Below the pieces are notes generated by a model. That model was not told the origin of the DNA. It was given only the letters and a program-made list of their open reading frames with translations, and did no database searches. From Spirochaetota bacterium (lineage in GTDB: Bacteria; Spirochaetota; UBA4802; UB4802): a stretch of 34,486 bases of DNA. Of the stretch, positions 12,472 through 14,892 are shown one piece after another. Positions within the stretch are counted from its first letter, which is position 1. Every line of letters starts with the position of its first letter. The stretch is from assembly GCA_026414805.1 (NCBI GenBank), contig JAOAIH010000029.1, forward strand, positions 1 to 34,486. The letters run 5' to 3'. A program made the translations under genes and the position numbers.

Positions 12472-12867
12472 TTAAAAAATTTTTTTTCGGTAGGTTGAAC
12501 GGCATGTGGCTGATTCCCATACAGTAACACTTAAAATATTGATTTTTGTTGCGTGGGTGCATGAATAGTGCTTCAACATTTTATCAAATTTTTGATATAT
12601 AATTTTAGATAATAATTCAGAACTTGGGTTCAGGTTTAAAAATTCTTCTACATCATTTAAATTTTTATGATCAAACTGTTGCAACACCTCTTTGAGCATA
12701 TCCTTTAAATCATGAAAGTCAATCAATATGCCAAGTTCATTAAGTTTTTCTCCATACACCGATACTTCTACCTTCCAGTTGTGTCCATGAATATTTTCGC
12801 ATTTTCCCTTGTATCCACGCAATTGATGTGCTGCCGAAATATAGTCTTCTATTGTCAAAATGTACAT
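12472..12867 (-). CDS. queD: 6-carboxytetrahydropterin synthase QueD
   Basis: A 131-residue enzyme of the T-fold family. Zinc ligands are H14 (SAAHQL) and H27/H29 (ENIHGHNW), the catalytic cysteine is C23, the Asp/His relay lies at FDHKNLND (residues 65-72) and the substrate-anchoring Glu is E118 in VWESA. It converts dihydroneopterin triphosphate to 6-carboxytetrahydropterin in queuosine (tRNA) synthesis; the same family includes 6-pyruvoyl-tetrahydropterin synthases. Length is normal. A start at 12867 follows an AGGTAAGG sequence. It lies 22 bp downstream of the DegT-fold gene and is probably cotranscribed with it. No queC, queE or queF is in the window. Confidence 0.93.
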   Translation of the reverse strand: MYILTIEDYISAAHQLRGYKGKCENIHGHNWKVEVSVYGEKLNELGILIDFHDLKDMLKEVLQQFDHKNLNDVEEFLNLNPSSELLSKIIYQKFDKMLKHYSCTHATKINILSVTVWESATCRSTYRKKIF

Positions 12868-12889: not shown

Positions 12890-13924
12890 TTATGCAAACA
12901 TTGTTAATACTTTGCTTACTTTTTCTATCTCACGTTTTGTAAGTGTGGGATAGATTGGTAAAGAAAAAAGTTTTTTTGAAAGCCGGTCACTATGTGGATA
13001 ATCAAGATTACGGAGTTTGCAATATTGATGTAACGGTACCTCTACTGGATGAAATATCTCAATGCCATTTTTCTTGAAAAATTTTTCAGCAATATCAGGC
13101 TGGGCATCAAATAGTACCGGAAATGCCTGGTAGGTGCAGTGCTCATTATATGCATATAATGTGGCATGATGCGTTTTATGTAATGCGTCATAGTAGATGC
13201 GGGCAATATCACGCCGCCGTTTAACGAAATCTTTCAGCTTCAGCAATTGATTTAAACCAACTGCGGCATGGAGGTCGCTCATGCAATACTCAAAGCCTAG
13301 AATATGTGAATGCGGAACACCGCTTCGCACATCGCGCATAGTTGAAAAATATCGGGAATTATTGGTAAACACCATTGCGCCCATTTCTGTTGTGATCATC
13401 ATTGATGGGGTGAATGATGCAACAGCAATAGATGGCACTGGCAAAAATATATCAGAGGTGTCCATTCCAATGGCATGTGATATATCAAGGATTACCGGAA
13501 CGGAGCTATCGCCCATATCAAAACCTAATGGTATACCAAACATATGCCCCACAACAATTGCTTTTGTATTGTGCGTAATTGCCGCAATAATTGCTTCCTT
13601 TGAAGGATGATACATGCCTTCAGCTATATCAACTAGCACAGGTTTTGCGCCAACCAAAAGGCATGCTTTCAACGGGGCTTCATGAAAAAAAGATGGCATT
13701 ATAATCTCATCACCTGCACCAATTCCCAGTGCCACAAATGCACAATGGTACGCTGCGGTTACTGAATTTGTGGCCACAGAATATTTTATGGATAGAAGGC
13801 TTGCTAATGCTTGTTCAAACTGTTTCACAACTGCACCAGACGCCAATGTGTCCTGAATAAGACAATCAAGCACGCCCTCAAGTTCTTTGCGGGTAATGGT
13901 TGGTTTGCTTGCTACTATTTTCAT
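12890..13924 (-). CDS. DegT/DnrJ/EryC1/StrS-fold protein lacking the PLP lysine
   Basis: A 344-residue protein with the full type I aminotransferase fold of the DegT family: N-terminal RKELEGVLDCLIQDTLASGAVVKQFEQALASLL, then ATNSVTAAYHCAFVALGIGAGDEIIMPS, and DISHAIG at the position of the Asp that pairs with the PLP ring. The usual SF-P-(T/S)-K-x-(I/L)-TTGEGG loop reads SFTPSMMITTEMGAMV, so the Schiff-base lysine is replaced by methionine and the GEGG motif is lost. It therefore cannot form the normal internal aldimine. It may be a pseudoenzyme, or use PLP or PMP without the lysine, as ColD does with His. The frame is otherwise intact and complete. The gene leads a two-gene unit with queD. 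The ribosome site (AGAGG) is unusually close to the ATG. Confidence 0.85.
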   Translation of the reverse strand: MKIVASKPTITRKELEGVLDCLIQDTLASGAVVKQFEQALASLLSIKYSVATNSVTAAYHCAFVALGIGAGDEIIMPSFFHEAPLKACLLVGAKPVLVDIAEGMYHPSKEAIIAAITHNTKAIVVGHMFGIPLGFDMGDSSVPVILDISHAIGMDTSDIFLPVPSIAVASFTPSMMITTEMGAMVFTNNSRYFSTMRDVRSGVPHSHILGFEYCMSDLHAAVGLNQLLKLKDFVKRRRDIARIYYDALHKTHHATLYAYNEHCTYQAFPVLFDAQPDIAEKFFKKNGIEIFHPVEVPLHQYCKLRNLDYPHSDRLSKKLFSLPIYPTLTKREIEKVSKVLTMFA

Positions 13925-14082: not shown

Positions 14083-14892
14083 ATGCGCAAATTTTTTGTA
14101 GTAGTGGTGGCGATAGCTCTTGTAATAACTTTTTTTACATCATGTGCACCTAACAATGTCATGACCAAACGTGATGAAACATATACCTTTGACCAGTCGA
14201 ATGTTCAGGAAAAACCTGTATATTCTGATATGGACTCACCACAGGTAGCTTCAAACAGCGATAGCTCATATTATCAAGTAGGGATAGCCAGCTGGTATGG
14301 AAGAGAATTCCAGGGAAGGCTCACAGCATCAGGGCAGCCGTTTGATATGAATAAATACACTGCAGCACACCGTACACTTCCGTTTGGAAGTGTCATTGTT
14401 GTAACTAATCTGGAAAATGGCAAGAAAGTGAAGTGTACCGTAAACGACAGAGGACCATTCAAGAAAAACCGCATCCTTGATGTATCCTATGCAGCAGCTC
14501 GACAGCTGGATATGCTCACAAAAGGCGAAGCAAAGGTGGGGATTACAGTGCTTTCCTATGGAAATGAAACACAGCAACAGCCACCATCAAATGATGTTGG
14601 TGTTTTTGGTGAACCAGTCAATCCTTATAATGAAAATCAAACTAACTCTTTACAAGATTCAAATGATTACATTGGCATAGCATTGCAGACAGGTGCATTT
14701 TATTCAAAAGCTAATGCCCTCAAACTCAAAGAAAAGATAGAAACAATAATAGATAAGCCTGTCACTGTTGTGCAGGAAGGATATTACTATAAAGTGAGAA
14801 TTATTAACCTCAATGACAGCGATGTCGTACACTACAAAAATATCTTAAAAAAGAACGATATTCCCTCATATAAGGTTACAATAGGCCAGTAG
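14083..14892 (+). CDS. rlpA: RlpA-family septal ring lytic transglycosylase, lipoprotein with SPOR domain
   Basis: A 269-residue lipoprotein: signal peptide ending in lipobox FTSC, then a linker, then a double-psi beta-barrel domain (about residues 63-165: GIASWYGREFQGRLTASGQPF, AAHRTLPFGS, VNDRGPFKKNRILDVSYAAARQL) with the conserved catalytic-type Asp in NDRGP. Residues about 195-269 form a SPOR domain (GIALQTGAFYSKANALKLKEKI), which binds glycan strands lacking stem peptides. RlpA cuts such strands at the septum in other bacteria. Strong AAAGGAGG ribosome site. The signal peptide and the linker each contain a copy of the GCGATAG motif (14110 and 14258). Terminated by the hairpin at 14915-14946. 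Confidence 0.93.
   Translation: MRKFFVVVVAIALVITFFTSCAPNNVMTKRDETYTFDQSNVQEKPVYSDMDSPQVASNSDSSYYQVGIASWYGREFQGRLTASGQPFDMNKYTAAHRTLPFGSVIVVTNLENGKKVKCTVNDRGPFKKNRILDVSYAAARQLDMLTKGEAKVGITVLSYGNETQQQPPSNDVGVFGEPVNPYNENQTNSLQDSNDYIGIALQTGAFYSKANALKLKEKIETIIDKPVTVVQEGYYYKVRIINLNDSDVVHYKNILKKNDIPSYKVTIGQ

Follow-up and report, generated by a model that had tools for sequence, protein, structure and literature searches.

Background

Some proteins with a PLP-enzyme fold are pseudoenzymes: serine palmitoyltransferase LCB1 and antizyme inhibitor have lost the cofactor lysine or cofactor binding and have a regulatory or structural role. LCB1 also illustrates that PLP fold-type I enzymes with non-catalytic partners exist. 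Among DegT-type sugar aminotransferases, Lys-to-Ala mutants of ArnB and WbpE have been crystallized with PLP, as stated in the titles of PDB entries 4oca and 3nys. In the sugar aminotransferase Spr1654 the PLP contacts comprise Lys199, Asp170 (to pyridine N1), His173 (to O3') and Ser194 with Thr59 (to the phosphate), while Glu205 and Gly206 contact the cofactor via water (PMC5936713). Glu205 is said to be conserved among all sugar aminotransferases (PMC5936713). In the dehydratases ColD, E1 and SpnQ, a His replacing the Lys serves as acid/base and PMP is bound (PMC8987622).

Here we analyze a gene of this superfamily, named DegT* for the present purpose, in a contig of 34,486 nucleotides from a Spirochaetota bacterium (JAOAIH010000029.1; the whole stretch is called the window). 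Literature searches found no published report of the DegT* family. Genomes, loci and taxonomic families are cited below by our own numbers (G, L and f), and g1 is the genus of the window.

The DegT* gene and its predicted fold

The following features of the gene and of its former PLP-lysine loop were located in the window:

12890..13924, minus strand: DegT*, putative DegT-fold pseudoenzyme gene, 344 aa (Pfam and AlphaFold2)
13370..13417, minus strand: former PLP-lysine loop, residues 170-185, SFTPSMMITTEMGAMV (from the alignment to ArnB SFHAIKNITCAEGG and the family alignment)
13400..13402, minus strand: Met175 codon ATG at the PLP-lysine position (CAT on the plus strand)

The reading frame is intact, starts with ATG and contains no internal stops. 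Pfam DegT_DnrJ_EryC1 (PF01041) matches the protein over its whole length (residues 9-339, E=3.8e-57, score 194.6 against a cut-off of 19.8), and the NCBIfam equivalogs PseC and ArnB score far under their cut-offs (160 versus 423 bits for PseC). An AlphaFold2 model obtained with the family alignment as input has a mean pLDDT of 89. Its top PDB matches are ArnB (TM 0.87), perosamine synthase and WbpE, with TM values of about 0.85-0.9, and the model thus has the PLP fold-type I structure of the sugar aminotransferases.

Loss of the PLP lysine

In a phmmer search against the PDB, SFTPSMMITTEMGAMV of DegT* pairs with SFHAIKNITCAEGGIVV of ArnB (1mdo), which puts Met175 opposite Lys188 and Met181 opposite the Glu of GEGG. 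The initial annotation, which had described a PLP lysine changed to methionine and a GEGG motif altered to TEMG, was correct on both counts. All 20 canonical DegT rows used as controls (19 from the same phylum, plus ArnB) carry Lys at this position, and 104 of the 110 family rows analyzed do not. Residue 175 is Lys in 6 rows, Met in 33, Asp in 20, His in 13 (occurring in f11 and f22), Ser in 11, Gly in 10 and Arg in 9, with Asn, Glu, Gln, Thr, Cys and Ala in the others. The Lys-bearing rows belong to f9, f14 (two rows), f16, f25 and one genus of f15. Lys was found at 175 in none of the own-order orthologues examined, where Met is commonest and Asp, Ser, Cys and Gly also occur.

A sequencing error was rejected as the source of Met175, because SMMITTEMG is identical in three independent assemblies of the window's genus (88, 87 and 75% identity) and the own-order orthologues lack Lys. 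A replacement lysine elsewhere was also sought, and no family-wide Lys-only position was found; the basic positions 7, 12, 237, 318 and 330 interchange Lys and Arg.

Two ideas attached to the methionine fared less well. One check proposed earlier was whether homologues with Met share TEMG, but TEMG or TTEMG is restricted to g1, the remaining order having TTGNGG (or TTGNGA), and Met175 homologues mostly read TTGNGG, with IGKGA in f22, f38 and f41. TEMG was therefore discarded as a common signature. Met had also been regarded as a distinct functional state parallel to the His of ColD. Column 175 holds 13 residue types and changes 23 times or more over the tree, the per-column median being 27; Thr178 and Gly182 show 0 changes and Asp147 shows 2. 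Because the position takes 13 states and changes about like an average column, Met is not a special residue, and its candidacy as a conserved functional one was dropped. The lysine position is one that has been released, with no special standing for Met175.

Other residues of the cofactor site

Two further codons of the cofactor site are relevant to the comparison:

13484..13486, minus strand: Asp147, counterpart of the aspartate at pyridine N1; 103 of the 104 Lys-less members have it (role of Asp170 in Spr1654, PMC5936713)
13289..13291, minus strand: Glu212, where canonical enzymes have Asn or Lys and Lys-less members mostly Asp or Glu

The aspartate is 98% conserved in the family. The alignment to canonical enzymes is gappy around 197-215, and position 212 is therefore less certain than 175. 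The counterpart of Spr1654 Glu205, which is E or D in canonical rows, is Met181 in the window protein and mostly Asn or Lys across the family, with A, M and others also occurring. The aromatic residue at 81 has given way to Pro, Ser, Asp or Asn. Ser170, the phosphate residue, is replaced by Gly in f11, f22 and f34 and by Asn or Asp in f8 and f10; own-order members mostly retain it, along with Asp147 and His150. When eight positions of the cofactor site are scored, 7-8 are retained in canonical rows and 1-6 in family rows; the Lys-bearing rows fall in this lower range too, and even they lack the Glu and aromatic 81. An independent-pairs comparison of the loss of Lys with the loss of Asn/Lys212 has 2-5 independent pairs only.

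Conserved residues were placed around the pocket via the alignment to Spr1654 and ArnB. By this placement, Thr178, Asp217, His299 and basic residues 7 and 12 would also belong to the retained pocket set. Conservation in the family is 90-100% for Asp147, Thr178, His299 and basic 7 and 12. All 110 members have Arg or Lys at residue 12, where most canonical rows have Glu, Asp or Gln; residue 7 is likewise Arg or Lys almost without exception. Asp147, Gly182 and Arg237 are conserved equally in canonical enzymes.

Distribution, phylogeny and selection

Orthologues of about 343 aa are present in 44 of 46 own-order genomes, the window's included, and the identity of orthologues in the order and in other families is 47-88%. 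Of the two exceptions, G045 (72% complete) contains a canonical DegT only, and G003 lacks DegT*, RlpA and QueD. The absence from G003 is likely an assembly gap because the RlpA and QueD neighbors are missing too. A profile built from 38 order members and searched against sampled genomes of the phylum recovered members of this short family from many further Spirochaetota families at 240-322 bits; a gap separates them from canonical DegT proteins, which score about 210 or less. Divergent rows from f58, f55 and f28 score about 196-211 bits, yet lie inside the family clade on the tree. Scanning genome contigs with exact window peptides returned close Spirochaetota relatives only.

On a tree made without columns 81, 175, 181 and 212, the family forms one side of a branch separating it from the 20 canonical rows (SH-aLRT 100). 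The Lys-bearing rows lie near the family base, except for one inside an Arg clade, and the Lys/non-Lys state requires five changes on this quick tree, in which several inner forks are weak. The exception (L142:5983-7035, G084, f15) is nested in an Arg-bearing Brachyspira-like clade, its lysine having been either regained or retained; the f15 genomes are presumably Brachyspira-like.

Within the genus, dN/dS of DegT* is about 0.05-0.07, like that of QueD and below that of RlpA, the values being rough since dS is high. The view of the initial annotation that this is not random decay is borne out: a decaying pseudogene was rejected on a dN/dS of about 0.06, and the family is conserved across order and phylum. 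DegT* is single-copy and under purifying selection, and probably inherited vertically. G007 (97% complete) and G016 have no full-length DegT match besides DegT*. FliG is found in nearly all genomes outside f49, making flagellar co-occurrence with DegT* uninformative.

The window's own genome contains, outside the window, a second and canonical DegT gene (G000:C71:13313-14352, minus strand) in which an in-frame TAA separates two Pfam pieces of 318.9 and 60 bits, either a pseudogene or an assembly error.

Gene neighborhood

DegT* is flanked in the window by the following genes:

12472..12867, minus strand: queD (6-carboxytetrahydropterin synthase), codirectional with DegT* and 22 bp downstream of it; the genome has no other PTPS-family gene
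14083..14892, plus strand: RlpA-like DPBB lipoprotein, divergent neighbor, conserved in 25 of the compared loci

This placement between a divergent RlpA-like gene and queD is that of the own order. Farther out, most own-order genera have a response regulator and a histidine kinase in convergent orientation, followed by genes c6 (RdgB-like) and c7 (endonuclease III-like), both judged by sequence. By coordinates, about 30 of 44 genomes of the own order have queD directly downstream, codirectional and no more than 300 bp away. queD also adjoins DegT* in f27, and in f18 and f44, where the gaps measure 1 to -1 bp. At L152:5913-8523 (G181, f44), DegT*, queD and tgt form a tight same-strand run with overlapping ends. 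At L068:9445-14988 (G056, f18), DegT* and queD run in the same direction as the genes for a response regulator, for a receiver-domain protein and for a 700-aa protein that resembles the histidine kinase of the own order.

The queD neighbor singled out earlier is thus real and common in the own order, but it is not needed for retention of DegT*. Family f10 and nearly all of f15 (complete Brachyspira-like genomes) have DegT* without QueD, PTPS being absent or a weak match at most, and on these grounds dependence on QueD was rejected. In many f24 genomes QueD is present and DegT* absent.

In other families CheW lies upstream of DegT* (f8, f21 and f58), and NAD kinase and RecN-like genes are neighbors in f10, f21 and f58. 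The order CheW, DegT*, NAD kinase, RecN-like is conserved in f21 and f58 (L148:5467-7992, L135 and L154:5519-7921). Other neighbors are STAS in f14, Rho in f16 and f25, and phosphomannose isomerase (ManA) in f34. The contexts are of housekeeping or signaling genes (QueD, RlpA, CheW, STAS, NAD kinase-RecN, Rho, ManA). Among the loci compared, neither a phylum-wide conserved neighbor nor a nucleotide-sugar cluster or sugar-dehydratase context was seen.

Proposed role and alternative explanations

The residue losses, monophyly, purifying selection and confident DegT-fold model described above are established for DegT*, and we consider it probable, at roughly 0.62, that DegT* is a Spirochaetota pseudoenzyme family whose members lack PLP-aldimine chemistry and function through binding to a ligand or partner. 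Its ancestor would have been an ArnB/PseC-type (DegT/DnrJ/EryC1/StrS) sugar aminotransferase, the single gene being kept by vertical inheritance after PLP chemistry could be dispensed with. Through the loss of the Schiff-base lysine, the conserved catalytic Glu, aromatic 81 and Asn/Lys212, the protein would have retained its fold and some of its pocket (Asp147, Thr178, Gly182, Asp217, His299, basic 7 and 12). The present protein would be a homodimer that works by binding, without transamination, and may serve as a sensor, regulator or scaffold. Its most likely ligand would be small and anionic or heterocyclic, held in the old cofactor/nucleotide-sugar cleft, for which Asp147, Thr178, His299 and the new basic positions 7 and 12 are candidate contacts. 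Since the own order keeps Asp147, His150 and Ser170, non-covalent PLP or PMP binding may occur there, which speaks against the pseudoenzyme reading, as do the crystals of ArnB and WbpE Lys-to-Ala mutants with PLP and the lack of a phylum-wide neighbor. More speculatively, DegT* could be a core spirochaete-specific sensor or adaptor with signaling links, its cofactor pocket refitted to a different ligand around Asp147 and basic 7 and 12; we regard this as rather unlikely. The signaling neighbors are CheW (f8, f21, f58), STAS (f14), and a histidine kinase with a response regulator (f18, and nearby in the own order).

The initial annotation had left a choice between a PMP-dependent enzyme, a non-catalytic partner and a regulator, and the last two together now make the best class. 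A PMP-dependent sugar-modifying enzyme of the ColD/E1/SpnQ type, for which the lysine is dispensable, would fit the DegT fold, the Asp147, His150 and Ser170 of the own order and the His at 175 in f11 and f22. That residue is nevertheless any of 13 types in the family, including Gly, Ala, Met and Asp, and sugar-dehydratase genes were not seen at the compared loci. The idea is further weakened because the Glu, aromatic 81, Asn/Lys212 and, in whole clades, Ser170 (now Gly, Asn or Asp) are lost, and we regard it as quite unlikely. An enzyme with new, PLP-independent chemistry on the retained Asp147, Thr178, His299 and basic 7 and 12 is unlikely too: the high conservation of these residues while the PLP set was lost, and the basic residue 12 in every member, favor it, but Asp147, Gly182 and Arg237 may be structural, being as conserved in canonical enzymes, and the gene context implies no substrate or pathway.

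A component or regulator of queuosine biosynthesis acting together with QueD would account for the downstream queD of the own order and of f18, f27 and f44, and for tgt as the next gene in L152. We hold this to be improbable in view of the complete f15 genomes and f10, which keep DegT* with no PTPS or a weak match only, and of the many QueD-bearing f24 genomes without DegT*. The idea that DegT* pairs with a canonical DegT enzyme as the non-catalytic half of a heterodimer draws on the sharing of DegT active sites between subunits (PMC5936713). As G007 and G016 contain no other full-length DegT, a catalytic DegT partner is not required, and an obligate one was rejected; Asn/Lys212 is, moreover, mostly Asp or Glu in DegT*, and a heterodimer appears extremely improbable.

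Pfam or NCBIfam annotation would label DegT* a DegT aminotransferase, though the residues of the defining chemistry are missing across much of Spirochaetota. The pseudoenzyme family proposed here is a conserved single-copy one in Brachyspira-like genomes and uncultured lineages alike, and its graded series of Lys-bearing, Arg-bearing and Lys-less members lets the change from PLP enzyme to pseudoenzyme be studied.

Comparison with known systems

DegT* has in common with the DegT sugar aminotransferases (ArnB, PseC, WbpE, perosamine synthase and Spr1654) the fold, PF01041, Asp147, a GxGG-type loop and dimer-facing motifs. Unlike them, it has no Schiff-base Lys, conserved Glu or aromatic 81, has Asn/Lys212 replaced, is about 345 aa long and shorter around 197-210, and lies outside sugar clusters. 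The PMP-dependent 3-dehydratases ColD, E1 and SpnQ resemble it in the DegT fold and the replaced lysine, but in these a single conserved His is catalytic and PMP is bound, whereas in DegT* the position is unconstrained, with Met in the window protein, and nearby cofactor residues are lost; nor do DegT* loci have the context of nucleotide-sugar dehydratases. A queuosine-pathway gene would be kept only with QueD, and f10 and most of f15 depart from this. LCB1 and antizyme inhibitor belong to other families, but in them, as in DegT*, a PLP-enzyme fold outlives the loss of the cofactor lysine or of cofactor binding.
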